64,000 nucleotides of DNA from Paramacrobiotus metropolitanus. Its lineage: Eukaryota; Tardigrada; Eutardigrada; Parachela; Macrobiotidae. Where the stretch lies: assembly GCF_019649055.1 (NCBI RefSeq), contig NW_026570237.1:1240001-1304000 (forward strand), in the 5' to 3' direction. Under the pieces are notes generated by a model. The model saw only the letters and a program-made list of their open reading frames with translations. It made no database searches and was not told where the DNA came from. A program made the position numbers and the translations under genes. How positions within the stretch are numbered: the stretch's first letter is position 1; the number at the start of each line of letters is the position of its first letter. Of this stretch, positions 7,142 through 40,235 are shown piece after piece.

Positions 7142-7230
7142 TCAAGAAGGCGCGGAAGTTCCGCTGAATGCATCACAGTCCGGAATGTACAACAACTCTG
7201 TGCAGCTACTCTGGTCCGATCCAGTCAAAC
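7142..7230 (-). other. Candidate acidic terminal exon, gene B flank
   Basis: After an acceptor TTTTGTAG a phase-1 frame reads GLTGSDQSS...LLYIPDCDAFSGTSAPS-stop. Counterparts at 34602-34693 (E), 24926-25018 (D) and about 15140-15260 (C) share the acceptor and the D-A-S/F-S-x-T-S motif. No donor in the preceding finger exon is certain, so use is unproven. Confidence 0.3.
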
Positions 7231-7522
7231 CTACAAAAGATTGCCTCGTCAAATACGCATCGTGTGAAAACAACATATACGAGGTAAAATAACGACCAAA
7301 GCAATAAAACACCGGTTAACCAAAATCATTCTCGCTGAACATTTTAATACTGCAAGCTGAACATTTTAATAAGCAAGCTGTGGTACTTCGTATAATTAAT
7401 TACCCTTGACGTCATGAGGCGCCGCAGTTTTCTTGTGTCCTACAGCGATGACTCCAATATCTCTGGCGAGGATTCCCGACAATCTTCAACATGCTTCTCC
7501 ATATCGCAGCCAACAGTCGCAG

Positions 7523-10021
7523 TCATTCCGACGTAGCCGGTGTGTTCTCTGGCATGCACCGCCAACAAGTTCCTGTCACAAACACAGCCCCGCAAATGCC
7601 ACACAGACACTTGTTGCTGATCTCGCCGTTGCTTTGATCCGACTGCTTCTGCGCATTCACACTGTCGGACACGACGGACAGTAATCCTGTGTGATGGCGT
7701 CGCATGTGGCCGGGTAGGTGGCCGAACCAACGATTACACGGCGAACATTTATCCGTCGTCCTCCCATGCTTGTCCACATGATCCACCAGCTTTTGCAACT
7801 TATCGAACGGTTTGTTACAATGGGGACATCGCTGCGTGCCCTGTTCGCGGCGCTTCCGTGATCCACTACTATCGGCGTTTCTGTGTTTCAATACATGCAA
7901 GCCATGGAGCGCTTCCGTTGTGAATCGCATTCCGCATTCGTCGCAAGTGAAGCTGTTAATGAACGTCAGATTCAGGTGTTTCTGCAACAATATAAACTAA
8001 ATACACTGCATTGTTGCAAAAAAAACTGAAAAAACAGGAAAAAATTTTCAGTCTGCAAAAAAATAATTTTTTATTAAACTTTCTTTAAAATTTAAAGCAA
8101 TTTATATACATCAGTAAAACAGGTGTTCATTTGCTGTACCGACTGATGCTCGGACAGCGCCGAGGGATGTTCAAACTCCTGCCCGCAGTCCTGACACCGA
8201 CAGTGTCTGCTGCCGTTTGAATTCACCCTGCTAGATGATCCCAACAAAGCAGTGTCGCCATTATCGCTACTGAAACATTCCAGCTGCAAAGATGATCCGC
8301 ACTGTCCACGCCGCAGATGTTCAGCCAGATTGTCGAACCACTGACAACAAACGCGGCATTTCTCCGTCGGTCGCCCATGTTCTTCCACGTGATCGAGCAG
8401 TCCTGCACAATTGTCAAAGGTGTCACCGCATTTCGGACAGGTTACGTCATTGCCCATAGCCGCGTCATTCGGGTCCGGAGTGTGCTTCAGGCGGTGCAGG
8501 CGGCTGACCATATACGATCGAAATCGCAGACCACATTCGTCGCAGGTTAGACTGTCGTACACCGGCGTTCTTGGCTGATGGGTCTGACAAAAATAGCAGA
8601 TCGTGTCAACCGAATCGCGCACTAACGTTGTGGTGTTACAAGTTACAACTAACGAACCTGTTCGTGTGCTTGCAAACCCGTCGGCGATGGAAATTTTTTA
8701 TTGCAAGCTGAACAGTGAAAGTTGTTCGTTTCCTGATCACCCGCACAAATGTCGGCGGTGGAAGGACGCCGCGGTAATGTCGTTTCGCGCACAGGCACCA
8801 CCGTTTGTGCTAGTGTTTGACTAGAGCGATTGCGCCTTATTCCATGGACTTGGCGGATGTGCGCCTCCACATCCCGTGGCGCAAAGCGTTTACCGCACAT
8901 TGGGCACTTCTCCGTCGCAACTCCATGGACCTCGATGTGAACCATCAATTCTTCTAGTTCCGCAAACTTTTCGCCACACTGCACACAGGCTCGACTGTTC
9001 CGGAAGTAGTCGAGTGATTTACTGTCTCCGTGTTGCATCTTATGCAATCGGCACAACACAGCTAAACTGAAGCGTCGGCCACACTGATCACACGTCAAGG
9101 CCTCCTTATTATGGATCTACAAATTAACATTTAGTCTTTAAAAGAAAACCAGTCGCATACCCGCCGAATCGAACAGCACCTTGATTTTATGGATTTTCAG
9201 ATGATCGGATATCCGAAATCTCTTCTCACACTGGCGACAGTGAAACGCCGCATCGGAAGTGACCGCAGCCTGGTTTCGCGGTTGATCATCGTAATCCCTG
9301 AGAGAAAGCCCAGGGTGATCGCGGCTGAAATGCTCCTCCAAGGACACAAACCACTGCTGACAGGCCGGACATTTTTGCGTCAATTTCCCGTGCTCCGCGA
9401 CATGCTTCACCAGCTGCTCGAATTCAGCGAATGTCTTCCCGCAAGGTGGGCATTTTCGTAGAATGCACAGGTTGGGAAAGGCGCAAGAGGGATCCCCCTC
9501 ATAGTAGGGGATCGCATCGCTGTTGTGTTTCATTTTATGAACAGCGCACAACAGAGTCGAAGCGAATTGCAGACCGCATTCGCTGCAAGTGACACTGTCA
9601 GTGAATGCCTGCCGCATTGATTGAGTGGCTTCAGTCCCATTCTCCTTCTAAAAGGAGAAAAAATCCCAAATAACATAAGATTTTTTTGAATAAATCAAAT
9701 CCTTATTGGCACCTTTTTTTCGGCGGCGTAGAATTTCGCATGATATCGCCGGATGTGATCCTTCAGTACAGTACATCGCTGATCACACAGTGGACACCGG
9801 CGTGTTAATTCCCCGTGTAAATCAACATGCTGTATCAGATCACGTAAATAATCGAATCTGGCGTCGCATCCAGGACATTCGTGCACACTGGGCTGAGTGT
9901 CGGCTGCAGTGGCCGGTTGATAACTGAGTTTGTGAATTTCCAGGACGGCCTTATTCGAAAACCGGAGACCGCACTCGTGGCAAGTGTATAAGTTGTACAG
10001 CACCTGGCCGGTCGACTGCGC
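7523..10021 (-). CDS. Gene B zinc-finger block, five exons
   Basis: Exons 10021-9713, 9647-9180, 9116-8658, 8583-8140 and 7981-7523, all phase 0. Each is a module of three or four fingers: TCxECGxRF...LHxxxH; CPxC...F...LxxHVxxHG; TxKCxxCxxWF...HxRxxH (degenerate); CxxCxxxF...LxxH. In most modules the final His pair is split by the intron (AHEQ|THQ, EHQS|KH, IHKIK|IH). No TGEKP linkers. In the last exon the frame leaves the final finger after GICGAVF and stops at 7523; the tail legible in C and D (YRESSPEIL) continues in another frame to 7440. Confidence 0.75.
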
Positions 10022-13000
10022 CTAAGCGTAAAGAAAAAATTCCTACAAAGTACAAACCACTCAGAAATCATGTAAACCGTAACTACATACAGCAGGCATG
10101 CGAACGTGATCACGTTTCGAAACAGGCGGCCATTTCTTCCGAGCACGGCCGTGACCTTTTCTCGGAGGAGGTGGCCAGTTCTTGTGTGGTCTCACTTTCA
10201 TCGACAGCGTAGTGGTATTCTTAGAAGAAGAGGAAATGCCATTCGGCAGAGCCGGTTCATTAACGATTTCTTCGTCTGAAGGGATACCGAACAGGTCTTC
10301 ATAAATATCCCCGCAACCTTTAAGATCTCCTCCAGATGCGCCTAGAAGTCCTCACAAATTACACTAGCAAAATTACCTTCATCATATCCAAAATTTCTCC
10401 TTATTACCCGGTGTCACAAAATCACAATCAGGATCCGGAGTCGGTGTCAAAGTACCGATGTGTTCCTGTAAGGATGCATCATCCAGCATTTCTTCATCCC
10501 AGTGATCAGGCAACGATTCTTCCTTAATAGCGCCGTCTAGCATTCCTCCCATTGCATCAGTGCCTGAAATCCATCAACCCTAGTTCTTGTGGCATCCAAT
10601 GTAATTTTCTATATCCCAAACTTAAAATGTGTTCCTACTGAACTGTACCGGTTGCTACGCCTTCCGAACCCATGTTATGAATGATTGCAGGAGTGATGAG
10701 ATCCAGATACTGTCTGGAATACCACACCCGCAGTTCTTCGTGCGGGGAGATGGTTCTGTTTGAGACGAAGACGATCTCGCATCCGCGCGCGAACACCAGC
10801 AGATTGCTCGCTTCCACGCTGTCCGCCAGTCGCACGTGCTTCATCCAGTTGCAGGCGTAATCCGAATCCAGCTGGTACTGCTTCCGCTTGACGTCCTCGC
10901 CCAAATCGGAAACATCCACGTATCGAGCTTTCTCTTCGTCGCTCCACACGCTTGGAGCGATCAACGGGCCGAATACTGTGTGCCGCTCCAGCATTTCTTT
11001 CACAAACACAGTCTTTCCTAAACACAACATAGTGTGCCAAGTTTTATACGTTTTATTGCCTTAATTACAGTCAGAACGTCCTCTTTGTGCAACAAATGTA
11101 AATACAACTCCTTACCGGTCGGCGATTCATCACAAACGTCCATATACAGAACTTTCGGTAAACTACCGACAGCTAACGGTATGACCGGTTCATCAGGGAT
11201 GCTCTCCGAATGTATCCAACAGGGCGTTTGCATCACTTTGAAACAGGATTCGCAATCTGAAAGTTTCAAAAATTAACGAATGAAATTGCCAATAACAGAC
11301 AGGGACATTTATCTACAAGATATTATTTTTTCCGTACATAGTAAGGCGTCATCCGGCTCAGGTATCGCCAGTGCAGTCCTAACGGCATTTCCGGCGCGCG
11401 TTCGAGGGAGCGCCGCAACTTCTGGTAACGCCGATGTGACAAGCGCTGCAAGAACAATTCCAAGTAATACTAAGCACTCTGCCGACGCATTAGTGCAATC
11501 AATCCACTTACCGGTAGCCACAGAATCTTCATCTCCCGGAAGACCGTTGTGAGATGCAATGTCAGGATTGGACAGGAAAGATGAGATACGAGCAGTAGAC
11601 ACCGGTTCCGAACAACTTTCCAACGGGACATTTTCGTTTATACCCGCGTCCATATGCTCCTGGATCGTTCCAGCTGTTTTGGCAATCTCCATATACTCAT
11701 CAGAAGATTCTAATGGAAGCCCGGCATCCGGTGCAGAACATTCATCAGCAGCATTATCATTGACAGACTGCTCCACCAATACAGTGCTCACATTATTGTC
11801 GATTCTATAAAGGTCAAAGGATTTCCTTGACGGCACCGCAGTGGCTTTTAACGTGATTACAGATTTTCCTCCCCTTCGAGGTACGACCACCATCAATTCC
11901 TCCGGATTAAAGTGATTTTCACACACCATCAATCTGTCAGAAAGGACAAAATCCGGATTCAGTTTTCGGCACACCGTCAACCACAGACTGTGCAGCGCAG
12001 TCGGTTTGGGGAAGGGAAAAAATGTCAGCTTTTCCGACCGCTTGCACGGCTCCGGCGATCGCCACCATCCGCATACACAGCAATACTGCACGCCTTTATG
12101 GGGAAGGTGTGGGTTGATCGGAGTTCGAAATTTCTCCACGCATTCCAGCCGTGAGGGCGTTGCATTCGGCCTAAGACTTGGTTGAGTCAGGCGCGGCTTC
12201 CTGACCGAGAAATCTTGTGCGCCAAAGTGTCGGCTGCACACCAAATCGTGTCCGGCACGGGGCGCCCAGGACACGGCACAGCGCATGCTGCGGATCCACT
12301 CATCCCGCCGCGTTTTGGCCACGGGGAAAGGGAAGTACCTGATCCTACCCGAGCCCAATTCCGCGGGAGGAACGTGACATCCCGGCACGCAGCACACCGG
12401 GCGACTCTCCATTAGCGGCTGTTTTTCCTGTTTTTCCGTTTGCTTTCGTTTGGAAGGAACCCCGAAAGGCATCATACGCGACGGAACAGCACTGGCCTTC
12501 AGTGTCGCGTCCGTCTCAAAGTCCTCCGGAGCAAAATGATTCTGACACAAGAGCGACTGCTCCGTCACCGGTTCATGTCGGCCCAGGTCCGAGAAAAATT
12601 TTGTCCACTTGGCCTTGAGATGGGTATCCGTCGGGAAAGGGTAAAACATCAGCATTTCCGAGGGCTTAGTCCAGCCTTTCCGTTTGGCACCGCACAACAA
12701 GCATGTCTGCATCCCGGCGACGTTCACCGCATTCTTAACCTCTCCGCCACGTAACCCTGAATAATGGAAAGCACTAGCACAAGCTAACCGACAGGGCAAC
12801 GCATCAGCCTTCAACCGGATGATAAACGGCGCTTTTCCGCTTTCTGCACGGTAGCCAAGCAAATCAGCATGGCCGAAATGCTGGCTGCAGATGAAGGAGG
12901 GCGGCAGCGGGTGCCAGGACGTTGAGCAGCGGATTCGCTGGACCCAGGCCTCGTACAGTTTGTGCTCGGGCAGCAGGAAGGGAAACAGCGTGTCCCCGGT

Positions 13001-14194
13001 TTTGGATGCGTTCCGCGACGTAACTGAACAACCAGGAACGCAGCAAATCTGCAACGTATCCACGTTCCCGGCGGCAACATCAACAAGCAACGCAACTTTT
13101 CCAACGTTCTCAGCTTGATTCGGACAGTCAGAAAGAGGAGCAACAGCCGCAGCCATCTCGTAATCGACACGAGCTGCCTTCGGGAGGGGAGCTTCCAGGT
13201 TCGGAGAGCGACTTTCCGCGCTACGCTTTTTCGTGCCTGCAGACATACAGGAAGAAAAAGACTCTCAAGGCTACATGTAAAAGCAACAATTGAATAAACT
13301 ATATCGTTCCGATTATGCACATGCAAAAAATGTTCATAAACATGCGACAGCATTGAAGAAATGTTTTTGTTATAAATCTCGTTTGTTCTAGTACTCAGTT
13401 TGTACTTACATGACGATACTTATTAAAGGCTATTATTAATCACAACATGCGATCCATCAAGATTTCGAAGTAATCCTACGTAATGCTGGTACAATTAACC
13501 GTCTGAATTATCTGAACCTTTACCGCTAAAATACTGAAAAACCGGGAAAAACGGATTCCATTTTTTGCTAAGATTTTTAAATGAATAAATTCAGCAATGT
13601 CTGCAAAGCTAGCCGAACACTTACTGCCGACACCAATTTCCGGGCTGTCTGGACGAGAGACACATTCGATTGGGCGATGCAGTGGCAAGACACCTTGAAA
13701 AACAAAGACAACTAAGGAAAATTATTCACTTCACAGACAGTTTCTGACCGTGAGAGATGACGAGAGGAAAGAATTTCACGTGAAAATACCACATCGACTA
13801 AAGGATTTCAAAGATAATGCTACCACAATGGAAGAGTACAATAATGTTTACTTGAGAATCCGATTTCCGGGCTGTCTGGTCGCGGAACAGACTCCACGGG
13901 CGGTTGCACGCTGTACAGGATACACGGCAGCGCGTCGTGTTTAAGACGCTTCTCCGTCTTCTCGCAGTCCTCAGCTGACGGCACGGCGAGAATGTCAGAC
14001 GAGCGAAAGTGCCTGCTGCAGATCTTGCTGGTGGTGGAAGGAATCCAGTCTTTTGGACGGAGGGTGCGCTCAATCCAGGCAGGATAGCGCGGATCGCTGG
14101 GATGCGGGAAAGAGAAGAAACACACGCTACGCATCGAACGCGATGGCTCTGACAACGGACACTGCAGAACGCAGCACACATAACCTTCGACCAT
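7523..14194 (-). CDS. Gene B: five-THAP / PR-SET / C2H2 zinc-finger protein
   Basis: Thirteen exons can be joined at GT-AG sites with consistent phases: 14194-13852, 13693-13625, 13236-11512, 11445-11338, 11256-11116, 11017-10649, 10563-10408, 10341-10091, 10021-9713, 9647-9180, 9116-8658, 8583-8140, 7981-7523. They total 5,301 nt, or 1,766 residues. Order: THAP, cassette, THAP x4, linker, zinc-knuckle pre-SET, PR/SET, two basic/acidic linkers, about 17 C2H2-like fingers in five exons. By family the PR/SET would methylate histone H3 on chromatin bound through the THAPs and fingers. No transposase (RNase H-like) domain accompanies the THAPs, so this is not a P-element relative. The last finger is cut by a frame change. 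The domain combination is one I do not know from described PRDM proteins. Confidence 0.75.
10091..10563 (-). CDS. Gene B post-SET linker exons
   Basis: 10563-10408 encodes an acidic stretch (IKEESLPDHWDEEMLDD). 10341-10091 changes phase from 1 to 0 and encodes an acidic start (YEDLFGIPSDEE), then a Pro/Lys/Arg-rich part (KNWPPPPRKGHGRARKKW) that looks like a nuclear localisation or minor-groove-binding segment. Counterparts exist in C, D and in part in E. Confidence 0.65.
10649..11445 (-). CDS. Gene B linker, zinc-knuckle pre-SET and PR/SET exons
   Basis: Linker 11445-11338; pre-SET 11256-11116 with YCESC...CWIH (C-x2-C...C-x2-H zinc knuckle) and VIPLAVGSLPKVLYMD, the form seen before PR domains of the PRDM4/9/10/11/15 kind. 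PR/SET 11017-10649: TVFGPLIAP, DYACNWMKHV (corresponds to ANWMRYV of PRDM9), NLLVFARGCEIVFV, and the C-terminal LRVWYSRQY with the catalytic-type Tyr of SET domains. All junctions are phase 1. Likely an active or recently active methyltransferase fold; target residue unknown. Confidence 0.8.
11512..13236 (-). CDS. Gene B THAP-array exon (four THAP domains)
   Basis: Phase-1 acceptor GTCTGCAG; first residues GTKKRSAES look like a nuclear localisation signal. THAP a about 68-154, b 182-256, c 285-367, d 389-475 (numbered from residue 1 of the 645-residue open frame). Types alternate: a and c are CCVPGC...CSxHF with RIRC/SMRC-x2-SW, b and d are C-x2-CG with FYPFP/FFPFP and C-x-NHF. The array is thus a duplicated doublet. 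An acidic tail follows d; the donor is ACCG|GTAAGT, phase 1. Confidence 0.8.
13625..13693 (-). CDS. Gene B cassette exon (69 nt, phase 1-1)
   Basis: Acceptor TTTTTCAAG, donor GTAAGT. Encodes SVLPLHRPIECVSRPDSPEI. It echoes the end of exon 1 (PPVESVPRPDSPEIG), so it probably arose by partial duplication of exon 1. Length and phase make it skippable. Confidence 0.65.
13852..14194 (-). CDS. Gene B exon 1: N-terminal THAP
   Basis: MVEGYVCCVLQC...CSRHF...LKHDALPCI. C-x4-C and C-x2-H ligands, Trp in AWIERT. Start chosen because the THAP fold classically begins within the first residues and the ATG is shared in position with A, D and E. Ends phase 1 (A|GTAAAC). Confidence 0.8.
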
Positions 14195-15911: not shown

Positions 15912-18317
15912 TCACCAAACGCCCGATTTGTGTCGTGACGGAGCCTCCAGTATTTCCGGCGAAGATTCCCGGTAGAGCCTTCCATTATTCTCCAGAGTGG
16001 AGCGGGGAGTCTTACAAATTCCCATGCCGCTGTCATGCTCTTTCGCATGCGCCACCAACAGTTCTTTCGTCCAAAAGATGCCACCACATATGCCACACAA
16101 ACATTTGTCGTCGATGTCGTTGTTCTGGCCCAACTGATTCCATGCATCCTCACTGTATGACAGTGAGGCTGGGTGACTGCGTCGCATGTGTCCCGGCAAG
16201 TGGCCAAACCAGCGATTACAGTGCGAACACTTATCCGTCGTCCTCCCGTGTTCGTCCACGTGTTCTGCCAGCTCCCGCAGGGTTTTGAACGATTTGTTAC
16301 AATGGGGACATCGCCGTTCACGGGAATGCGGAATTCCGGCGCTTACGACCTTCCCGTGTTGTAAAGTATGCAACTGACGCAACGCTTCCGTTGTGAACCG
16401 CATTCCGCATTCCTCGCAAGTGAGGCTCTGAATGAACGTCAGATTCAAGTGCTTCTGCAATAATATAAAAGGCTTTTTTAAAATGGTTTACTGCATCTTT
16501 TTAGGTAAACAGTCAGGGTTAAAATGGGAAAGCATTGATATACGTACATTTTACACTAGTGTTATTATTGTTCCAATAATTATGCACCTTCTCATGATCG
16601 GACAGGCGAGACAGCTGCCCAAACTCTTTTCCGCAATCTTGACAATTACTGTAATGACTTGCAGTGTTGATACTATACGATTCCCGCAATCCAGCACCGC
16701 CAGTATTAGCGCTAATCGAACACTCCAGCTGCGAAGACGATCCGCACTGTCCCTGGCGCAGGTGTGCATCCAGACTGTCAAACCACTGACCACAAACGCG
16801 GCACTTTTCCGTTGGTCGGCCATGTTCCTCCACGTGATCCATCAGCTCCTTCCACTTGTCGAATGCATCACCGCATTTCGGACAGGTGAGCTCCTTATCC
16901 CCAATACTGCCACTAGGATTCCCCTGGTGTTTCAGACGGTGCAACCGACTCAACACGTGCGATCGAAAGCGTAGACCGCAGTCTTTGCAGGTTAGACTTT
17001 CGTGTGTGGCTGGCTGGTGAAGCTAGAACATCAGTCAGGTTTGTGAACTTTCATTGTAGTTTAGAATCAGTTTTAATCAAGAGCAACTGAACCTTTTCGT
17101 GAGCTTGCAAAGCACTCCGGAATGAAAAGCTTTTCTCGCACAGTGTACACGGAAGAGGTTTCTTTCCCTGACCACGGGAGGACGCATCGGCAGTGAAAGA
17201 GGGACGTCCCGGTGACGTCATTCTGCACACTTTTAACAACGTTCCGGCTAGAGGTTTTCCCGTGGGGCTGCTATCGTGTTGAAGGTCATGTCGCATAACC
17301 ACCGGCAGTTCCGGTACAGCGACGTTTTTACCGCACAGCCTGGTGTTCTGCGTTGGGACAGCGTGAACATCGATGTGCACCAGCAGTTTCTGCAAATCTG
17401 CAAACATTTCGCCGCATTGCACACAGGTTCGGCTATTCTGTAACCACTCTGCAGGATTATTGTCCCCGTGCTGCAGCTGGTGCAGCCGACACAAAGCAGC
17501 CAAACTGAATCGTCGGCAACACTGAGCACATGTCAAGGCCTCCGGATTATGAACCTATAGAAAACACTTAACAATGAATTCTGAAAACAAGTAGCTGCCA
17601 TCGGATGCACCTGTATCTTGTGGATTCTCAGAAAACCCGACGTTGAGAAGCCCTTCACACACTGACGACACTGAACTTGCGTATCGAATCCAACAGAATC
17701 TTCTTTACGCGCTGGCTTGTCACATTCCATAAAAGCAAACTGATTGATACTCTCAGACATTGCCTGTGGACATGATGCGCAGCAACTGCGTAGGTTGGGA
17801 GAAGCGCCCGAGGGATTCCTTTCCAAGTCGCGATCGGCGCTACCGTGTTTCGTCTTGTGGACACTGCACAGCAGTGCGGACGGAAACTGCAGACCACATT
17901 CACTGCAGGTGACACTGCGAACTGAGCGCGCGTTTTCGACCACCGACCCCGTCTAAAAAATCAAATAAATCTAACCAATGACATCATATGTATAATCGAA
18001 GCATCCTTCACCTTTTCGGCGGCGTAGAACTGAGGGTGACACCGCGCGATATGCTGCTTCAGATCAGGTACAGGACACCGCAGATCACACACCGGACACC
18101 GGTGCGTTATTTCCCCGTGTAAATCAACGTGCTGGATCAGATCTCCGAGATGGTGGAATGCAACGCCGCATTCCGGGCAATTCTGCACACTGTCTTGATT
18201 GCCGGCGGCACCGGCCGGTTGATAACCAAACCGGTGCACTTCCAAGACGGATTTATTCGTAAATCGTAGGCCACAGTCGCTGCAAGAGTAAAACTGCGCA
18301 ACTGCGGGTCGATGTCT
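15912..18317 (-). CDS. Gene C zinc-finger block, five open exons
   Basis: Same five-module plan as gene B, phase-0 junctions, histidine pairs split across introns (AHEK|LHQ, DHEK|KHL). The last exon is complete here: GICGGIFWTKELLVAHAKEH, then RESSPEILEAPSRHKSGVW and stop. Second module is shorter than in B (one finger lost). Coding frames preserved in spite of the broken upstream parts. Confidence 0.6.
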
Positions 18318-18489
18318 CTAAAATCACAGAGTCGACAATCAGTTTACATTCTACAATCGACAGACAAGTCAGTTAACTTTGTTAGTGTTTCAGATGTATA
18401 TTGCCGCTTCGTTTGGTACTTAGTTTGTACTCGCATTGTGACATTTATTATTGTTAAAGTCCAGTTAACTTTGAATCATAGTACGAGTA

Positions 18490-18916
18490 CGAACGCGAAA
18501 ATAAACTTTTTTTCGAGCAGGCGCATTCTTCCGTGGTTTCACTTTCGGCGACAGCAGCGACGAGTCAATGTTATTCGGCACAGGCGCATTGTCAACGATT
18601 TCGCCGTCCGAAATCGAACAGATACGAAACAATTCTTCACCAATTTCACCATCCAATGTACTATTCTTTCCATCTGCAACTGAAATTCATTATACACATT
18701 ACCGGTAAAAGTAGCATGAATTTTATTTTCTTAATGATCTCATAATAAAAAAACTCTTATTACCGGGTGTTTCAGTATCATCATCAGGATCTGAAGATGC
18801 TGCAGAAGTAACAAGGTCTCTTTTCAAGGATAAATGATACACTATTTCCTCATCCCAATGGTCAGGACACGACTCTTCCTTAATAACATTGTCCGACATT
18901 CTCTCTGCCTCGACAC
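18490..18916 (-). pseudogene. Gene C post-SET linker exons
   Basis: 18916-18764 (VIKEESCPDHWDEEIVYH...) and from 18673 (DGKNSTLDGEIGEELFRI, then PRKNAPARKK) match gene B and D linkers. The donor of the second is unclear. Confidence 0.5.
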
Positions 18917-18961
18917 CTGAAATTCATAAAATCCTGTGTTCAACGTGATACTTTCTAAAAC

Positions 18962-19857
18962 GAAATGTTGTTATTTGCCGACGACGTGATGGTGTACAAG
19001 ATTACTGACTCGGATGTAGATGCGATAGGTGTTCAACAAGAACTGGATGCCGTCAACGAATGGACGTACAACCATAACTTGATTTGCAATGCATGTATTC
19101 AGTTCTCGTTCAGAAAGAAAATGTCTCAGCCCTAACAAATAAACGGGGAAAGTGTTCCCACAGTTTATTCGGCTAAGTATTTAGGAATCAATGTAGAGCG
19201 CAGTTACAAATGGAAATTGCAGTCCGAAAATGTTTTGGGCAAAATTTTAAAGCGGTTGCGGTACCTTAGCACTTTATTTCGTTCCCGAGATTTGTCGGGA
19301 CGGTGTACACCGTTTACGAGTTTGTTCTGTCTGTCTCCGATTACTGTGCGCCTGTCACCTTTTCTACTCAAAAAGGGCTGATCGATAATGTGGAAAACGT
19401 TCAAGAAAGATTAGTTCAGTCGAAAGTGACCGAAAAGTCTATATCGGCAAACTGAAAGAGCTAGGGTGGGAACCAATCGTACGGCGCAGTCTGAAGTGCA
19501 GCCTTACAACTTAATCCCATATGATGAAAAGTTATTTCGTAAGGGTGCTGTGTGTTCTGGTGTTGCAGAATGCAGATGCTACGCGTCGTCAATCGATGAT
19601 GGCTGCACATCCGCGCCCGATTCCCCTATTGGATCTACGTTGTCCGCCACATACTCCCACCATCGGAACGATCATTTGCATATAGGATTTGGAATGATTT
19701 ACGGATTCCGGCATAATCTTAGCAGAGCCTTGGTAGATTTACTGCAGCTTTCAATTACGTTGACTGAAAGTGTGCAGTGTCTCCGAAGCAGTTTTACCAC
19801 GCTGAGCACGTGTTAGAAACTTTGAAATGTAAATATTTAAAAATTTGTTTAATTACG
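18962..19857 (+). mobile_element. Truncated LINE fragment in the SET exon of gene C
   Basis: Plus-strand frame begins LLFADDVMVYKIT, the F/YADD catalytic box of non-LTR reverse transcriptases, followed by QELDAVNEW and KYLGI-type thumb sequence. Several stops and frame changes; 5'-truncated. The flanks match gene D on the left (CAACGTRATACTTT) and the SET exon on the right (GGAGCGATTAGCGGG), so it replaced most of the SET domain. Confidence 0.75.
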
Positions 19858-20369
19858 ATGGGAGCGATTAGCGGGCCAAATACCGTGTGCCGCATTTGTG
19901 TTTCCCTCACGTAAATAGTCCTTCCTAAACACTACATAATTTGCCACGTTTTCTTGCCTTAAATACAGTTAGAGCGTTCTGGCCGTGCAACAACTGCGTT
20001 TGTAAATGTGAAAACAACTGCTTAATTACCGGTCGGCGACTCATCACATACGTCCATATACAAAACTCTGGGCAAACTACCGACTGCCAATGGAATGACC
20101 GGTTCGTCCGGGATACTGTCCGAATGCATCCAACACGGCGTCTGCATCACTTTGGAACATGACTCGCAGTCTGAAAGCTCAAAAATTAGCGACTAAAATG
20201 GCCAATAAGAGATAGGAAAACTTATCTACAAGATATTTTTCTTTCCGCGTACATAATAAGGCGTTGTCGGGGTCAGTTATCGCCAGTGCACTGAGTGCAG
20301 TCTTAACGGCATTTCCGGAGCGCGTCCGAGGGTCCACCGCCACTTCCGGTAACGCCGATTTGGCAAGCG
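19858..20369 (-). pseudogene. Gene C linker, pre-SET and truncated SET
   Basis: Linker 20369-20253. Pre-SET 20170-20030 (DCESCSKVMQTPCWMH, intact). SET exon from 19924: only the first ~65 nt remain, broken off where the LINE begins. Confidence 0.65.
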
Positions 20370-20430
20370 CTGCAAGTTTCAAGTATTACAGTACAAGCAT
20401 TCTGCTGACGCATTAGGGCAATCAACTTAC

Positions 20431-21354
20431 CGGTAACCACAGAATCTCCATCACCGGGAAGACCGTTGTGAGACGCATTGTCAGGATTAGACAGGAATGA
20501 TGAGATACGAGCAGCAGACACCGGTTTCCTTCTCTTGTCCGTTTCCTTCCCTTTGGACATCGGCCCAAAAGTCCACATGCGGGACGGAACTGCAGTGACC
20601 TTCAATGTCCCGCCGGTCTCAAACTCCTCCGGAGCAAAATGATTCTGGCACACCAGCGACTTCTCCGTAACCGGCTTCCGTCGTCCCTGGTCCGTCAGAA
20701 ATTGCATCCACAACGACTTGAGACGGGTATCCGTCGGGAAAGCGTAGAACATGAGCCTTTCCGAGGGTTTGGTCCATCTTTTCCGTTTTGCACCACACAC
20801 TTGACAAGCTCGCATCTCCAGTATACTCCGTGCGTCCTCCATCTCTCCGCCACGCAATCCTGAATGGTGGAAAACCCTGACACAGGCCAACCGACTGGGC
20901 GACGCGTCCGCCTTCAAAACCATCGCTTTGCCGCTTTGCGAACGGTAACCGACCATATCGGCGTGCTCGAAATGCTGGCTGCAGATGAAGGAGGCCGGCT
21001 GCGGTTGCCAGGAAGTGGTGCAGCGAATTCGTTCGACCCAGGTATCGTAGAGTTCGTGCTCCGGCAGCAAAAAGGGAAAGATAGTGTCCCCGGTTTGGGA
21101 TGCGTTCCGCGAAGTAATGGAACAGCCAGGAACGCAGCATATTCGCAGAGTATCGGCGTCCCCGGCGACGCTTACCAGCGAACGATGAGAAAAATCAACA
21201 AGTAGTGTGTTGCTTCCGACGTTCTCAGCATGGTTCAGGGAGTCAGATGAAGGAATAACCAACGGCGCAGCCACCTCGCAACCGACACGAGAGGTCTTCG
21301 TGGGTGGAGTTTCGGGACGCGGAGAGCAGCTGTCCGCGCTGCGCTTTCTCGTGC
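20431..21354 (-). CDS. Gene C THAP-array exon, two THAP domains only
   Basis: Acceptor CGTTACAG, open to the donor GTAAGT at 20430. THAP a (CCVPGCSITSRNAS...CSQHF) and b (CQVCGAKRKRW...CQNHF) are followed directly by KGKETDKRRKPVSAARISSF, which in gene B lies beyond THAP d. An in-frame internal deletion removed the c-d doublet. Confidence 0.7.
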
Positions 21355-27228: not shown

Positions 27229-30200
27229 CTGAAATTTATGAAATCCGGTATCCAACGTAATACTTTTTAAAATGGTACGCAAAAAATTCAAGTACTGTAC
27301 CAGGTATTTCGCCATCCGAATCAACATTCTGAGATGCTGCGGGATTAAGAAGATCCAAATACTGTCTGGAATACCACACCCGCAGTTCTTCGTGCGGGGA
27401 GATGGTTCTGTTTGTGACGAAGACGATCTCGCATCCGCGCGCGAACACCAGCAGATTGCTCGCTTCCACGCTGTCCGCCAGTCGCACGTGCTTCATCCAG
27501 TTGCAGAGGTAATCCGAATCCAGCTGGTACTGCTTACGCTTGGCGTCCTCGCCAACATCGGAAACATCCACGTATCGGGCTTTCTCGTCGTCGCTTGACA
27601 CTGTCGGAGCGATCAACGGGCCAAATACCGTGTGGCGCACTAGTGTTTCCCTCGCAAAAACAGCCTTTCCTAAACAAAAATCCCATCGTTAGTATATCAT
27701 CGTTACTCAGTTAAATAATAAGAAAAATAATTTCTTACCAGTCGGCGATTCATCACAAACGTCCATATTCAAGACTTTGGGCAGGCTACCAACAGCGAGT
27801 GGTATGACCGGTTCATCAGGGACATTAACCGCATGTATCCAACACGGTGCTTGCATCAACTTGCAGCAAGGTTCGCAATCTGCAACGGCATAGAATAGTG
27901 AGTAAATTATTTAAAAAAGCAATTTCGTACAGATGGTTTTTCGTACAGATGGAGGTATCACTGGGCGCAGATGCGGTAATAATTGTCGGCGTCTCGATCA
28001 AGACCCGGCCCCTGATCGTAGACGGAACCTGAATATCCGGTAGCGGAGATGTCACGAGCACTACAACAGACAATCATTACATATATCATGACATAAATCT
28101 TACAAGGAATCTTACAATGATCGAAAGAATTTTCCTCGCCCTTATCTTCTGGAAGACCGTTCCGTGACGCTGCCGGCAAACACAACTGAAGAGATGCACT
28201 GGGGTCCTTATTTGCTGAAGGTGCGTCAGTTTCCATTGGGATATGATCGTTCTCATGTGACTGTACACGCAAATCACCCACGGTTTCCAAATTGTTCGTT
28301 TTGTCACCGACAGCGACAGGAAGTCCGGCATCTGTTGCAGCTACGTCACCGTTCGTAAACGCATGTTGTTCTTCGAAAATACCACTTTCAAGAACCGGGC
28401 TGGACAACTCGTTTGGCGTCCTAACGGAGGGCACCGCAGTGGGCTTTAAAATCAGCTTAGACTTGCCCCATGTCACGTCATCTGGTTTAAAGTGGTTTTC
28501 ACATACTAGCGACCCAACCGTGAAGACAAATTCCGGACTCAATTCACGGCACGCCGTTATCCACAGTTGCCTCTGCGCCACAAGTTTCGGGAAGGAGAAA
28601 AATGCCAACCTTTCCGACCGTTTAACTGGTTCCGGCAACCGCCACCAACGGCATAAACAGCAACACTGAACTCCTTTATGGAGAATTTTCGGATGTATTA
28701 GAGGAATTTTCGTACTGATTGGGGTTCGAAATTGTCCTACGCAATCCAACTTAGATGGAACAGCACTCTGCTTCAGGCGGGATGAAGTGATGCCCGTGAT
28801 TTTGTTGACAACACTGTGCGAGAAATCCTGAGCGGTGAAGTGCCGGCTGCACACCATATCGAATCCACGCCGTGGCGCCCAAGATACGGCACAACGGATG
28901 CAGCGTATCCATTCATCGCGACGCGCGGGATCCAGGGGAAAATGCATGTAGGTTATCCTGCCCGAGCCCAATTCCTCGGCAGGTATGCGGCATCCCGGCA
29001 CACAGCAAACCGTACCCTCCTTTGGCGCTTTGCTGTCCGCTTCCTTTCGCACCTTTCTGTCTGTCAACTTGTACCTGTCTTTAGCGCGAAAGATAAGCAT
29101 GTGTGCTGGAACTGCATTGGACTTCAATACTCCGCTTGTCTCGAAGTCCTCCGGGGCAAAATGATTTTGGCACACCACCGCCGGTTCGGTAGTCAGTTCC
29201 CGTCGGCCTTGGTCCGGCAGAAATCCCGTCCACAAAGAATTCAGATGCCTAGCGCTCGGAAAAGGATAGAACACGAGCATTTCCGCGGGCTTGGTCCAGC
29301 CGTTCCGTTTGGCGCCGCACGCTCGACAGGACTGCACTTCCGCTACACTCTGCGCATTTTCCGTCTCTCCGTCACGTACTCCGGAAAAGTGGAAAGCTGC
29401 AATACACGCTGACCGACAGGGCACGGCATTGTCCCTTAGGACGGTGGGAAACGGCGCTTTTTTGGCATTTGTACTGATTCTGCAGGTTTTTATATCGGAA
29501 CGGAGGAAATGCCGGCTGCAGATGAAGGAGGGCGGCTGCGGCTGCCAGGACGTCGTGCAGCGGATTCGCTTGACCCAGACATCGTACAGCTTGTGCTCGG
29601 GCAGCAGGAAGGGAAACAAAGTGTCCCCGGTTTGAGCTGCATTCTGCGATGTAATGGAGCAACCAGGAACGCAGCACATTTGCAGAGTGTCCGCATCATC
29701 GGCGGCGCTCACTGGTTGCGCCGGGGAACGATCAGGAAGATCAACAAGCGAGCCAACCTCCCCGCGGCTTTCAGGTTGCTTCGGTGAGTTCCGCGAAGGA
29801 AGAGCAGCCACAGCAGATTGAGGGAGAAGCGGAAGGGGTTCGGCAGCAACCGGTTTGTCGCTCGAATGTGGTCGAAAGAGGATATCGGGAGACGGAAAGT
29901 GCAACATCTGTGCAGTCGATGCAAGTGCAGCTGCACACGCTTCGGCCGCGCTCGGTGTAGCCTTTGGGCAGGCTGTGCGGCGTTCAGTCGTCTCCTCGTC
30001 AACACGTGCTACCTTCGTGGGCGGAGGTTGCAGAGTCGACAGACAGCTGTCTTTGCTGCGCTTTTTCGTACCTGCAATGACACCAAAAAGTAAATAACCC
30101 AAGCTAAAATATAAAGTAATAACGAACAGCTAATAAACGAACAGAAGTAAGAGAACAACCGACGATATTGAAGTCAACTATTTGATTTTAAAAAAGAATA

Positions 30201-30998
30201 CACGCAATTGAAATAAATCAGCAAATGCAACCCAACGCAAACTGACGCAACCCAGTTAGTGAAATGAATCGTCTCAATTACCCGACTTTGCTAACAAACT
30301 TTATCTGTCATTTCATTTATATTTTAAATTACAAATTATTAACAATTTACGTTATTTCTCAACGAACTCAATTAGTGTTCTCTGCTTTTCTACGCGAACA
30401 CTTACTGAGAACAGCGATTTCCGGGCTGTCTGGACGAGGGGCAGATTCGATCGGGCGATGCGCTTCCAAGACACCTTGACGAAACAAAGCAATGCAGAGA
30501 AAAATTATTCACCACACTGACAACGAGAACTTTTGCTAGTGCCACATGATGAGCGATAAGTATTCTAAGCACCAGCTCGGCTTAAGTATTTCAAAGACAA
30601 AAGTACGGCTACAATGAGTACAATCGAAGATTACTGTGCTTACTTGAAACTGCGATATCCGGGCTGTGTGATCGCGGAACAGACTCCACGGGCGGTTGCA
30701 TGCTGCGCGGGATGCCTTCGAAGAGACACGGCAGCGCGTCGTGTTTGAGACGCTTCTCCGGTTCCTCGCAATACTCGGCTGATGCCAGTATCACAATATC
30801 CGACGAGCGAAAGTGTCGACTGCAGATCCTGCTCGCTGCGGAAGGAGCCCGGTCTTTTGAATGGAGAGTGCGCTCAATCCAGACGGGATAGCGCGGATCG
30901 CTCGGATGCGGGAAAGCGAAGAAACACACGCTGCGCATCGAACGCGATGGCTCTGACAAGGGACACTGCAACACGCAGCACACATCGCTCTCTGCCAT
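25338..30998 (-). CDS. Gene D: five-THAP / PR-SET / C2H2 zinc-finger protein
   Basis: Exons: 30998-30644 (THAP), 30474-30406 (cassette), 30071-28116 (THAP x4), 28060-27947, 27879-27739 (pre-SET), 27669-27301 (PR/SET), 27228-27073, 26979-26624, 26551-26105, 25877-25338. Phases match gene B. The finger block is shorter: the second linker runs directly into the second half of the third finger module, removing the first two finger exons, with the frame kept. The 72-nt intron between 26624 and 26551 is a multiple of three and has no stop, so its retention would also be tolerated. Best intact copy beside B. Presumed nuclear chromatin regulator, as for B. Confidence 0.7.
27301..28060 (-). CDS. Gene D linker, pre-SET and PR/SET exons
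   Basis: Linker LLVTSPLPDIQVPS; pre-SET YCEPCCKLMQAPCWIH; PR/SET with TVFGPLIAPTV, DYLCNWMKHV and LRVWYSRQY. The linker's donor (ATCT|GTACGA) is next to a 16-bp tandem repeat that offers a second, in-phase-altering donor. Confidence 0.75.
28116..30071 (-). CDS. Gene D THAP-array exon (four THAP domains)
   Basis: Phase-1 acceptor CATTGCAG. After a 130-residue Pro/Ala-rich start come THAP a (143-233), b (258-335), c (365-454) and d (480-558), each with its C-x2/4-C and C-x2-H ligands and FPF/YPFP core. The acidic tail carries DAGLPVAVGDK as in B and E. The donor CATT|GTAAGA gives phase 1. Confidence 0.75.
30406..30474 (-). CDS. Gene D cassette exon
   Basis: 69 nt, acceptor GTCAAG, donor GTAAGT; encodes a HRPIESAPRPDSPEIAVL-type peptide, phase 1-1. 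Confidence 0.55.
30644..30998 (-). CDS. Gene D exon 1: N-terminal THAP
   Basis: MAESDVCCVLQC...VWIERTLHSKD...CSRHF...LKHDALPCLFEG. Ends phase 1 (A|GTAAGC). Confidence 0.8.
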
Positions 30999-33887: not shown

Positions 33888-33899
33888 TTCGCAATTGGA

Positions 33900-34925: not shown

Positions 34926-36438
34926 TTACTTGTATTGCTCGTGACAAGCAAGCTGTGCTACAAAGCATAACCGACCTTTTGCTTCATCCAGTCCCCGATC
35001 TTTTTCGTGGGCAATGACGATGGACGGAGCCTGCAGTATTTCTGGCGAAGATTCCCGGTAGACTACTAAATTATCCTCCATAGCGGACGATGAGTGATTG
35101 CGTCGCACGTGGCCCGGCAGGTGACCAAACCAGCGATTACACTCTGAGCATTTATCCGTCGTCCTCCCGTGTTGGTCCACATGTTCCACCAGCTCCCTCA
35201 AGGTTTTGCACGATTTGTTACAATGTGGACATCTCCGTTCGCGGGGATGGCGCATTCCGACACCTACGATGCTCCCGTGTTGTAAAACGTGCAACTGATG
35301 CAGCGCTTCCGTTGTGAACCGCATTCCGCATTCGTGGCAAGTAAAGCTCTTAATGAACGTCAGATTGAGGTGCGTCTGTAACAGGACAAGATAACCTCTT
35401 TTAAAATTAGTATAGCAACTTTTTTGGATAAACAACCAGGGCTGTAATGTGCAAATTGCGGTGGTTCAAACATCCTGGTACTTTATGAAACTGTTTTTGC
35501 TTATAAGTACGAAGCTGATTTACGCCAGTTTTACGCCATATAAAAAAGCTACTATTTCATGTACCTTCTGGTGCTCGGACAGATCGGACTTATGTTCAAA
35601 CTCTTTTCCACAATCCTGACAAGGATAGTGTTCACTTGAACTCTTGTTGTTAGTGCTGGAAGATCTCAACAATCCAGCATCGGTGGTATCAGGGCTACTC
35701 GAACACTCCAGCTGTGCCGATGACCGGCAATTTCCAAGTCGCAGGTGTGCATCCAGATTGTCAAACCACTCATCACAAGAGCGACATTTTTCCGTGGGTC
35801 GCCCATGTTCCTCCACGTGGTCCATTAGCTCCTGCCACTCGTCAAATACGTCCCCGCATTTCGGACAGGTCAACTCTTTTTCTACATTGTTGCCACTAGG
35901 ATTCCCCTTGTGTTTCAGACGGTGCAGCTGGCTCAGCATGTGCGATCGAAATCGCAAACCACATTTTTCGCATGTCAGACTATCGTTCACCCGCGTCGCT
36001 GGCTGATGAAACTGAAATAGCCCTCGTGTAAACCAAATCCCACGCTAAGTGTTCAAATTTTTGAATGAAACTAACGAACCTTTTCGTGAGCCCGCAAAGC
36101 ACTCTGTAGTGGAAAGCTGCTATCACATAGTGGAAAGCCATCTTGCTGATGGTCTTGGCGAAGATGCGCCTTTAGTGCCGCAAAACGTTGACCGCACAAG
36201 GGACATTTGCGCGCCGCGACACCATGGACTTCAATGTGCATCAACAATTTCTCCAGTTTGGCAAACTGTTCACCACACTGCAGACAGGTTCGGAAATTCT
36301 GCACCCATCTTGCGGAATAACTGTCCCCGTGCTGCATCTTTGGAAGGATAAAGGATCCAGCATTTTCTCGCCGCAGTGGTCAGCAAAGGACTCTTCCTTA
36401 ATAACACTGTCAGGCATTCTTCTCTCAGCCTCGACACC
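34926..36438 (-). CDS. Gene E zinc-finger block (three exons, shortened)
   Basis: 36438-36080 joins the acidic linker to a finger module (QCGEQFAKLEKLLMHIEVHG...). 36011-35565 is a four-finger module. 35375-34926 lacks the final finger by an in-frame deletion and gains a new tail (APSIVIAHEKDRGLDEAKG...). Confidence 0.65.
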
Positions 36439-39400
36439 TGAAATTTATAAAATCCTGTATCCAACGTAAAACTTACCAAAATGCAGTTAAGCAAAAAATT
36501 TATTCACACAACACTGTACCAGACATTTCGCCATCCGAATCGACATCCTGAGGTGTTACGGGATTAAGAAGATCCAAATACTGTCTGGAGTACCACACGC
36601 GCAGTTCTTCGTGCGGGGAGATGGTTCGGCTTGTGACGAAGACGATCTCGCATCCGCGCGCGAACACCAGCAAATTGCTCGCTTCCACGCTGTCCGCCAG
36701 TCGCACGTGCTTCATCCAGTTGCAGAGGTAATCCGAATCCAGCTGGTACTGCTTTCGCTTGGCTTCCTCGCCCAAATCGGAAACATCCACATATCGGGCT
36801 TTCTCGTCGTCACTGAACACGGTTGGAGCGATCAACGGGCCGAATACCGTGTGCCGCATTACTGCTTCCCTCACGTAAACAGTTTTACCTAAATACAGCC
36901 CATCGTTAGTTTATCACCAATGCATAAGAAATAATCCGTAAAGTAATCTCTTACCAGTCGGCGATTCATCACAGACGTCCATATACAAGACTTTCGGCAA
37001 GCTGCTTGTAGCCATTGGTATGACCGGTTCATCAGGAATACTGTCGGAATGTATCCAACATGGCGTTTGCATCAACTTGCAACATGGTTCACAGTCTGCA
37101 ACGGCATAAAATAATGACAAAAATATTTACAAAAACAATAAGTTTGTCCATACAGATAAAGGTATCACAGGGCGGTGCAGATGCGGTACTAACTGTCGGC
37201 GTCTGGATGACGTCTCGGCTGCTGGCTGCGGGAAAAGTAACAGTCGGCAGCGAAGGTGTCACTAGCGCTACAAGAGAGAGAATATTCACCCGTAGCCCAA
37301 TTCATTATAACATGTATCTTACGAGGATCGAAAGAGAATTCTCTTCGTTTTCCTCTCCTGGCAGACCGTTGCACGACGCGATCGGTAAACTTGGCAGATA
37401 GGATGCATTAGCGTCCGTAGATCCTGAAGGTGCGTTAGTGTCCAGTGGGACATTATCGCTCACATGCAAGTGCCACCGCAAATCATCCATTTCAGTAGCG
37501 TTGGGGGCGTCATTGGCGTCTAAAGGAAGTCCGGCGTCTGGTGCAGCCACGTCACCCTCCTTGCATGCACGTTGTTCCTCGGAAATTTCAGGAGTCGGGC
37601 TGGAGAAAAAGCTTGGCGTTTTAATGGAGGGGCACCGCAGTGGGCTTTAAAATCAGTTTAGACGTGTTCCATGTCTGCCACCTCCAATCCTCTGGTTTAA
37701 AGTGATTTTCACACACCAGCAACCCAAAAGAGAACACAAACTCGGGATTCAATTCTCGGCAAGCCGCAATCCAAAGCTTCCACTGCACAGTCAGTTTGGG
37801 GAAGGGAAAAAATGTCAGCCTTTCCGACCGTTTACATAGTTCTGTCGACCGCCACCAACCGCATATACAGCAGCACTGTATTTCATCAAGGGGAATTGTT
37901 GGATTAATTGGGGTTCGGAATTTTTCCACACATTCCAGCTGTGATGGAACGGCACTCTGCTTTAGACCGGATGAGGCGAGGCGCCTTATTTTCGCTACAC
38001 TTTGTGGGAAATCTCGAGTGGTGAAGTGCCGGCTGCACACCATATCGTCTCCTCGACATGGCGCCCAGGAAACTGCACACTGCATGCAGCTTATCCATTT
38101 ATCCCGACGCGCCTCATCCACGGGAAAACGCGTGTACGTTATCCTACCCGAGCCCAGCTCCTCGGGAGGTATGCGGCATCCCGGCACACAGCAAACCTCG
38201 CTCTTTTTTCCCACTTTCCCTTCCCCTTTTTTGCGTCTAGATCTGGTGCCAAAACGCGGCCTGCGCTTTGGAACTGCACTGGCCTTTAATATCCCACAAC
38301 CCGAGCCCAGCTCAAAGTCCTCCGCATCAAAATGGTTCTGGCACACCAGCGACTGCTCCGTATCCATCTGGTGTCGGGTCAGATCCGGCAGACAGTTGAT
38401 CCACTTCGACCTGAGATGGATATCCTTCGGGAAAGGGTAGAACATGAGTATTTCCGACGGCTTTGTCCAGCCATTCCGTTTAGCACCACACGCAAGACAG
38501 GTCCGCACGTCGCAGACCTTCGTCTGCGCTTTCGCAGCCTCTCCGTCGCGTACTCCGGAAAAGTGGAATGCAGCAATACAGGCGGATCGAAACGGCACAA
38601 CACCATCCCTCAAGGTTGTTAACGGCGCTTTTCTGATATTTCCACTAATTCTGCAGACTTCCCAATCGGAGCGGTGGAAATGCTGGCTGCAGATGTAGGA
38701 GGGCGGCTGCGGCTGCCAGAACGCCGTGCAGCGGATTTGCTTGACCCAGGTGTCGTACAGCTCGTGATCAGGCAGCAGAAAGGGAAACAGGACGGTTCCG
38801 GAAGCGTTCCGCGATGTAATCAGGCAACCAGGAACGCAGCAAATTTGCACAGTATCCGCATCCACGACAGCGCTCGCCGGTTTCGCCGAGGAACATGGAG
38901 AAACCAAGGCAACCTTAACGCCGCGCTCAAGTTCGTTCGCGGAGTTAGAGGAAGGAGCAACCGCAGCAGATTGAGGCGGCAGCGGGAGAGGTTTGGCAGC
39001 AACCGCTTGGTCGCTCGATTGAGGTCGAAAAAGGATATCGGGAGACGGAAAGTACAACATCGGTGCAGGCGATGCAAGTGGAGCAACACACGCTTCAGCC
39101 ATGCGCGGTGTAGCCTTTGGGCTGGCTGTGCAGCGTTCGATTGTTTCCTTATCAACACGAGCTGCCTTCGTGGGCGGAAGTTCCAAAGTCGACAAACAGC
39201 TGTCCGCGCTGCGCTTCTTCGAACCTGCAATGATATCCGAAAGTAAAAAATTTTCTCTGAAATCTGTATCACTGCCAATACACGAACAGAACAAACCATG
39301 CTAGTTATGCCAGCTAAAGTTGAATTCGAAGTAAAAAGCGCTCACTGACTAAGTTGTGCTGGCATCGCTGAGTAACAAACGGAGCAGCAGACAAACTGCA

Positions 39401-40235
39401 TAAAAACTGGCCAGTGTCAAATATACGAGTACGCAATAAAAATAAATATTTAAAAAAATATACGAGTACGCAATAAAAATAAATCAGCATTTAGCAATGT
39501 TGCATACGAACTGAAGCATTATTTTAATTGTTTTAATTACCAAATTTTTGATTGATTAATAAACCAGAAAGACTTGATATTTTGAATCGCAATTTATTAA
39601 ATCTAAAGCGATTAATCCAAATAGCGCCGTCTGCTGTATTACACGAGCACTTACTGGCAACAGCGATTTCTGGGCTGTCTGGACGAGGAACGGATTCGAC
39701 TGGGCGATGCATCTTCAAGACACCTTGAGAGAAAAAGCAATACAGAAAAACTATTCACTAAACTGAGAGCTTTTAATGCAAATAATTCAAGCTAAAATTA
39801 CTAAATCAACTAAATTTCAAGTACATTACTACATTTCAAAGATAAAGCACTAGATCGAAGATCACAAGGTAAAAGATTACTCGAAGCGCCGATTTCCGGG
39901 CTGTCTGGTCGCGGAACAGACCCCACGGGCGGTTGCAAGCTGCGCGGGATGCCTTCGAAGAGACTCGGCAGCGCATCGTGTTTGAGACGTCTCTCCGTCT
40001 TCTCGCAGTCCTCGGCTGACGGCACGGTGAGGATATCCGCGGAGCAAAAGTGTCGGCTGCAGATCGTACTAGCTGCGGAAGGAGTCCAGCCTTTTGGACG
40101 GAGAGTGCGTTCAATCCAGACGGGATAGCGCGGGTCGCTCGGATGCGGGAAAGCGAAGAAACACACGCTGCGCATCGAACGCGATGGCTCTGACAAGGGA
40201 CACTGCAACACGCAACACACATCGCCGTCCGCCAT
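34926..40235 (-). CDS. Gene E: five-THAP / PR-SET / zinc-finger copy, frame-disturbed
   Basis: Exons: 40235-39881 (THAP), 39723-39655 (cassette), 39224-about 37300 (THAP x4), 37267-37154, 37095-36955 (pre-SET), 36888-36520 (PR/SET), 36438-36080, 36011-35565, 35375-34926. Compared with D, one extra C after THAP d (near 37630) ends the frame at 37621, and two extra bases near the exon end put its donor out of phase. The linker/finger exon at 36438-36080 is a deletion fusion with the two halves in different frames. A THAP-only protein of about 690 residues is still encoded by exon 1, cassette and array. Either a recent pseudogene or one that now makes shorter products. Confidence 0.6.
36520..37267 (-). 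CDS. Gene E linker, pre-SET and PR/SET exons
   Basis: Linker LVTPSLPTVTFPAASS; pre-SET DCEPCCKLMQTPCWIH; PR/SET with TVFGPLIAPTV, CNWMKHV and LRVWYSRQY, all catalytic-type positions kept. Phases 1 throughout. Confidence 0.7.
37621..39224 (-). CDS. Gene E THAP-array exon (four THAP domains)
   Basis: Acceptor CATTGCAG. Four THAPs in the usual a-b-c-d order: CCVPGCLITSRNAS, CLACGAKRNGW, CCVPGCRIPPEEL, CCICGWWRSTEL, with C-x2-H partners CSQH, CQNH, CSRH, CENH. The frame ends directly after THAP d; the acidic tail seen in D (DAGLP...) continues in another frame to about 37300. Confidence 0.75.
39655..39723 (-). CDS. Gene E cassette exon
   Basis: 69 nt, phase 1-1, acceptor TCTCAAG, donor GTAAGT; encodes VLKMHRPVESVPRPDSPEIA. 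Confidence 0.6.
39881..40235 (-). CDS. Gene E exon 1: N-terminal THAP
   Basis: MADGDVCCVLQC...VWIERTLRPKG...CSRHF...LKHDALPSLFEG; phase 1 end (A|GTAATC). Confidence 0.8.

Follow-up and report, generated by a model that had tools for sequence, protein, structure and literature searches.

Candidate genes joining THAP arrays to a PRDM-type core in the tardigrade Paramacrobiotus metropolitanus

Results

A 64,000-nucleotide stretch of the Paramacrobiotus metropolitanus genome (assembly GCF_019649055.1, contig NW_026570237.1, positions 1,240,001 to 1,304,000; hereafter the window) carries a tandem family of predicted genes in which THAP, zinc knuckle, PR and C2H2 zinc-finger parts very likely form a single-gene architecture, judging from splice sites and reading frames retained between the copies. 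The family comprises five B-type copies (A to E) and a diverged neighbor (gene F), with further relatives (genes G and H) beyond it; all coordinates below are positions within the window.

Exon structure and domains of gene B

Gene models were assembled from splice sites conserved between copies in alignments of those copies. This approach replaced a generic gene-finding script, which skipped short exons. The features of gene B are as follows.

Gene B, 14194-7523, minus strand, 13 exons, 1,766 codons
Exon 1, 13852..14194, minus strand, start codon and THAP domain 1 (PF05485, 2.4e-12)
Exon 2, 13625..13693, minus strand, 69 nucleotides (nt), phase 1-1, splice sites from the A-E alignment
Exon 3, 11512..13236, minus strand, four-THAP array, phase 1-1 (PF05485, 5e-38, four stretches)
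Exon 4, 11338..11445, minus strand, 108-nt bridge, phase 1-1, splice sites retained in copies B to E
Exon 5, 11116..11256, minus strand, zinc knuckle C-x2-C-x7-C-x2-H
Exon 6, 10649..11017, minus strand, PR domain (PF21549, PRDM2_PR, 1.2e-18)
Exon 7, 10563-10408, minus strand, linker
Exon 8, 10341-10091, minus strand, linker, whose 3' end is the least certain junction
Exons 9-10, 10021-9713 and 9647-9180, minus strand, C2H2 finger region
Exons 11-13, 9116-8658, 8583-8140 and 7981-7523, minus strand, C2H2 finger region and stop

The joined model is 5,301 nt long, giving 1,766 codons plus a stop with no internal stops, and its introns are 63-388 nt. It encodes, in order, five THAP domains, the zinc knuckle, the PR domain and the C2H2 fingers. 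Exons 2-7 are symmetric, being entered and left in phase 1. The frame required by splicing was free of stops in all 13 exons and was the sole stop-free frame in 10 of them; exons 1 and 4 each have one additional open frame, and none of the three frames of the 69-nt exon 2 contains a stop. Exon 8 has five frame-compatible donors, of which the chosen one (GTATGT, after 10091) gives the 1,766 codons and the other four give fewer. THAP domains of the C2CH type were recognized by Pfam, and B and D each contain five C2CH signatures; those of gene B exon 3 lie at amino acids 202, 316, 419 and 523. The PR exon also had weak similarity to SET (Pfam SET, 1.1e-4), and exons 9-13 (7523..10021) gave Pfam C2H2 matches; a C2H2 regular expression matched gene B 13 times.

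Joining of the THAP array to the PR exon

The bridge between the THAP array and the PR exon holds three introns. The GT, the AG and the phase of all three are retained in B, D and E, and in none of the nine pair comparisons were the intron interiors of these copies more alike than the best-scoring of 200 shuffled sequences. Copy C retains the bridging GT-AG sites and phase too, although its closeness to B means that it adds less. The lengths of exon 4 differ by multiples of three, being 108 nt in B, 114 in D, 114 in E and 93 in F. In gene B the array end and the PR exon start are separated by 495 nt, of which 249 are coding, and thus there is little space to accommodate both a 3' end and a new promoter.

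The same architecture was found in gene D, the model of which has 10 exons and 4,509 nt (1,502 codons plus a stop, with no internal stops), and in decayed form in two other copies.

Gene D, 25338..30998, minus strand, 10 exons, 1,502 codons
Copy C, 15912..22043, minus strand, decayed, start codon lost and PR exon cut short
Copy E, 35046..40244, minus strand, decayed, stops in the array exon and finger region partly missing
Copy A, 3..4285, minus strand, THAP exon, mini exon, homeodomain open reading frame (ORF) and THAP array, cut by the window edge

Gene D encodes five THAP signatures, the knuckle, the PR domain and seven matches to the C2H2 regular expression. Its first seven exon phases are identical to those of B. 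Exon 8 of gene D continues into sequence that matches the end of gene B exon 11, and counterparts of gene B exons 9 and 10 and of the greater part of exon 11 (the first finger exons) are missing. In copy C the PR-exon match extends over only 47 residues, most of the exon having been lost, whereas the PR exon of copy E is open despite the stops in the array exon, and its finger region is shortened. Copy A lies at the left window edge, so any PR part would fall outside the window. These models agree with a sequence-only reading of positions 7142-40235, which had counted exactly 1,766 codons for gene B, placed THAP, THAP-array, knuckle, PR/SET and finger exons consecutively on one strand in B and D (borne out here by Pfam and the exon models), described GT-AG introns of about 60-390 nt with matching phases, and taken C and E to be decayed. 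The family reaches past that range, with copy A extending to the left edge and gene F occupying 45532-41308.

Gene F, a diverged neighbor

Gene F, 41308..45532, minus strand, five exons, 947 amino acids
THAP exon 45532-44884, small exon 44507-44415 and knuckle exon 44291-44154, minus strand
PR and finger exon 43857-42452 and finger exon 41862-41308, minus strand

Gene F has the order and phases of gene B: a THAP exon, a small exon, the knuckle, the PR domain and fingers. Pfam recognized both THAP (1.2e-10) and PRDM2_PR (3.3e-18) in the joined 947-residue protein. The required frame is open in all five exons and is the sole open frame in three, and the lengths of the small exon and the knuckle exon are divisible by three. 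The THAP exon of F carries an NGLP motif close to its end, a feature shared with B, C, D and E. Knuckle-PR identity between F and B is 41% on a provisional join. As so diverged a gene repeats the THAP-knuckle-PR-fingers order, the joining of THAP to PR probably predates the tandem copies.

Selection and a homogenized PR exon

The ratio of nonsynonymous to synonymous divergence (dN/dS) was calculated by the Nei-Gojobori method. Twenty rows were kept, and an A-B row for the first THAP domain that was out of register owing to a wrong start for A (17% identity) was left out. Between B and D the values were 0.37 for the array, 0.10 for the knuckle, 0.41 for the PR exon and 0.30 for exon 1. The ratio was mostly below 1 for B against D and E, and over all rows it was below 1 in 19 of the 20, the exception being the 22-codon exon 2 in the B-D comparison (1.2). 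The array rows for copy E include codons beyond its first stop and overstate divergence.

Synonymous divergence between B and D was 0.27 in the PR exon, compared with 0.99 for the array and 1.03 for the knuckle. Fisher tests of PR against array, which used rounded Nei-Gojobori counts, gave p values of 4e-8 (B-D), 5e-5 (B-E) and 5e-6 (D-E). In 100-nt windows B and D are 96-99% identical at starts 10900-10800 and 54-58% at starts 10700-10600, with 63-74% in the upstream intron and 77-83% in the knuckle exon. Within a 210-nt PR core, identical sites number 201 (B-D), 198 (B-E) and 202 (D-E), an identity of 94-96% in copies whose adjacent exons are far more diverged. Fourfold sites of PR codons 25-90 differ at 2/25 (B-D), 2/24 (B-E) and 1/27 (D-E), versus 7/20, 5/20 and 5/21, respectively, in the remaining PR exon. 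The resulting island is far more alike than its flanks:

Gene-conversion-like PR island, 10699-10986, minus strand; also 36570-36857 and about 27351-27638

Gene conversion is the likeliest cause of the homogenization of the PR core, with selection on synonymous sites a less likely alternative.

Relatives and active-site positions of the PR domain

PF21549 matched the PR domains of B (1.2e-18), F (1.7e-18), G (4.6e-25) and H (5.8e-13), and those of D and E were assigned by homology. The knuckle residues C2, C5, C13 and H16 are invariant in six paralogues, and the knuckle aligns with that of PRDM11. The solved structures closest to the knuckle-PR region of gene B were PRDM10 (3ihx, 7e-16), PRDM11 (3ray, 5e-10) and PRDM4 (3db5, 3e-9), with PRDM9 a weaker match to the PR domain (3e-4). 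A profile of the six PR domains of the window again placed PRDM10, 11 and 4 at the top, in another order, and matched PRDM9 at 8e-17.

The FGPL of gene B aligns with the FGPY of PRDM11, which we take to be the position of PRDM9 Tyr276, and hence position 276 is apparently Leu in gene B. In passages of PMC9861158, S-adenosylmethionine is bound in PRDM9 by Asn320 within 320NCARDDEEQN, and Tyr276, Tyr341 and Tyr357 are named. By gap-free counting from that motif, gene B has Arg at position 320, Phe at 341 and Tyr at 357. At the Asn320 position, Arg is found in B, D, E and G and His in F, and H has Arg with an adjoining gap. The Tyr341 position is Phe in all six domains, and Tyr357 is kept in five (B, D, E, F and G) and lost in H.

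Scans of viral contigs and genome contigs with the PR alignment, in neither of which animal genes were expected, gave 50 and 13 pattern matches, respectively, none of them a confirmed relative.

Alternative explanations

Two adjacent genes, one a THAP-array gene and the other a PRDM zinc-finger gene, could have been duplicated together and be transcribed separately. An AATAAA at 11057 in gene B, between the knuckle and the PR domain, would suit such an arrangement, as would the statement in passages of PMC4009873 that PRDM genes yield forms from different promoters, by which PR-only isoforms may also exist. We nevertheless consider separate genes very improbable: the GT-AG sites and phases of the bridging introns persist around interiors in the shuffled range, the array and PR exons are closely spaced, and both order and phases recur in the diverged gene F; moreover, the AATAAA at 11057 is missing from the aligned C, D and E. 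That the whole cluster is a graveyard of functionless pseudogenes would fit the broken C and E copies and the late frameshift of gene B relative to C and D, but is hardly credible given that B, D and F are open over 1,766, 1,502 and 947 codons and that dN/dS is so consistently below 1. Some observations do tell against intact single genes. The identity of the bridging-intron interiors was slightly above the shuffled mean in seven of the nine comparisons, gene B has further AATAAA sequences at 8702 and 8075, a 1-nt deletion in its last exon (7523-7981) makes its C-terminus differ from those of C and D, and three of the five B-type copies are decayed or cut by the window edge.

The other question is whether the PR domain is an enzyme. 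A catalytically active histone methyltransferase directed to its sites by two DNA-reading arrays would be consistent with the strong conservation of the PR core and with the Tyr357 position kept in five of six domains, and PRDM15, which likewise has only Tyr357 of the three tyrosines, is proposed in passages of PMC9861158 to be capable of one methylation step. We think this unlikely. The Asn320 and Tyr341 positions are changed throughout, the PR domains are closer to PRDM10, 11 and 4 than to PRDM9, and neither KRAB nor SSXRD was matched by Pfam in the 30 ORFs and one protein scanned. A review table (passages of PMC4009873) reads "no" for PRDM10 where PRDM8 and PRDM9 read H3K9 and H3K4me3, and the same source describes methylation by some PRDM proteins and enzyme recruitment by others, with repression as their general mode of action. 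A non-catalytic PR domain that docks a partner is the reading we prefer to an active enzyme, with about even confidence. Set against it, besides the PRDM15 proposal, are the statement in passages of PMC5519329 that loss of active-site residues is no proof of inactivity, and structure predictions too poor to use for the PR exon (six sequences; predicted local distance difference test score, pLDDT, 47.5) and the THAP-array exon (four sequences; pLDDT 47.8). The "histone-modifying domain" of the sequence-only reading is therefore not upheld, since two active-site residues of PRDM9 are missing from the PR domain, whose closest matches are PRDM10, 11 and 4; the broader proposal in that reading of a THAP-knuckle-PR-C2H2 gene in tandem copies has indirect support.

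Proposed function and origin

In known families, both THAP and C2H2 domains are DNA-binding. The full explanation, to which we incline with some reserve, is that B, D and F would each be one protein-coding gene for a nuclear DNA-binding regulator with a docking PR domain. It is conveniently divided into four parts: (i) one mRNA would encode the N-terminal THAP domain or domains, the PRDM-type knuckle and PR domain, and then the C2H2 fingers, (ii) the THAP array and the finger array would bind DNA and jointly read a long or two-part site, (iii) the PR domain would not methylate histones, and instead would dock a chromatin partner, with repression the most likely outcome, in the manner of several PRDM proteins, and (iv) the B-type copies would have arisen by tandem duplication, some then decaying, with the PR exon homogenized probably through gene conversion. 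The placement of two arrays around the PR core suggests that the protein binds a long or two-part site and recruits a chromatin partner through PR.

Comparison with known families

A zinc knuckle before the PR domain is a trait of a subset of PRDM proteins, and PRDM4 and PRDM10 have fingers C-terminal to PR, as do the window genes. PRDM10, PRDM4 and PRDM11 gave the best PR matches, and the PRDM11 knuckle aligns with that of the window; to our knowledge none of the three has a THAP domain, whereas gene B has five at its N-terminus. In the models (rather than transcripts) of B, D and F, C2H2 fingers lie C-terminal to PR in the same gene. PRDM genes are found in metazoans only, according to passages of PMC2082429; the spliced genes of the window mark it as eukaryotic, and its THAP and PRDM domains indicate an animal. 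PRDM9 (KRAB-SSXRD-PR-C2H2) likewise has an extra N-terminal module ahead of a PR-finger core; the window genes differ in having THAP rather than KRAB and SSXRD and in the changed Asn320 and Tyr341 positions.

Among THAP proteins, passages of PMC13228809 and PMC10027918 give transposase and BTB domains among the partners, mention multi-THAP proteins and make no mention of PR or SET as a partner; "PR domain" and "methyltransferase" are absent from the text of PMC13228809, and "SET domain" and "PRDM" occur 0 times in PMC10027918. The multi-THAP proteins known from flies, from worms and from certain echinoderms resemble the window genes in having several THAP domains per protein and differ in that no PR or SET partner is mentioned for them (passages of PMC13228809). 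The sequence-only reading knew of no described THAP-PRDM fusion, and there was none among the matches listed in Creative Commons-licensed PubMed Central text, although this does not establish the absence of a description. Its analogy with the expansion of KRAB zinc-finger genes holds for the tandem layout and the decay of C and E. KRAB zinc-finger gene clusters do consist of tandem copies with decay; the difference is the lack of a KRAB match in the ORFs scanned. A transposon origin of the whole THAP-PRDM unit, by analogy with THAP9 or the P-element transposase, was rejected, as the same Pfam scan of 30 ORFs and one protein found no transposase domain.

PRDM proteins have been described as PR plus fingers, with KRAB added in PRDM9. 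A THAP-array PRDM, if true, would be another, independent route to placing a module before the PR core. The conserved, apparently dead PR domain offers a test case for PR function, its core being the most alike between copies among the exons compared.

Candidate modules before a common core

Gene G and copy A carry other modules, and gene H is a further relative.

Homeodomain ORF in copy A, 2857-3732, minus strand (PF00046, 1.4e-14)
Gene G, 45947-50603, plus strand, Myb/SANT-like ORF, knuckle, PR, Myb/SANT and C2H2 ORF, more fingers
Gene H, 58122-62662, minus strand, knuckle, then PR, then C2H2 ORF, with no N-terminal part recognized in the window

Spliced as a 672-nt phase 1-1 exon (3701-3030), the copy A homeodomain would fit in frame after the mini exon and before the THAP array. 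As skipping this exon also preserves the frame and an AATAAA lies downstream of the ORF, the homeodomain may possibly be a separate or nested gene. Gene G, in which Myb/SANT-like domains take the place of THAP, was delineated as ORFs in order rather than as a full spliced model. Its ORF before the knuckle has no Pfam match of its own and resembles (2e-23) the Myb/SANT part of the ORF after PR, in which Myb/SANT (PF13837, 3e-8) is followed by fingers. The first ATG of gene G lies about 420 base pairs (bp) from that of gene F, on the opposite strand, and the two genes possibly share a promoter.

The modules found before the core are thus a single THAP (F), THAP arrays (B and D), a homeodomain plus a THAP array (A) and a Myb/SANT-like region (G), suggesting that in this animal new gene regulators arise through the exchange of DNA-reading modules on a shared core; comparison of B, F and G offers a concrete exon-phase route for the addition of a module. 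More tentatively, and with more doubt than confidence, we put forward a module-swapping family in which the phase-1 introns upstream of a PRDM10-like knuckle-PR-finger core would accept different DNA-binding modules. The outcome would be an expanding repertoire of regulators with two independent DNA-reading arrays around a homogenized, non-catalytic PR domain, acting perhaps against transposons, like KRAB zinc-finger proteins.

Other elements in the window

A comparison with Rfam gave 0 matches. Two 463-bp direct repeats (51146-51608 and 55787-56245), 98.9% alike, flank a minus-strand ORF (52864-55008) with similarity to Ty3 capsid under the Pfam cut-off; the segment 51146-56245 looks like a long terminal repeat retrotransposon. 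An inverted repeat at 31740-33759 has arms of about 870 bp (31740-32614 and 33759-32896) that are 96.8% alike, and the sequence at 60000-60410 resembles the spacer of this repeat together with part of one arm.

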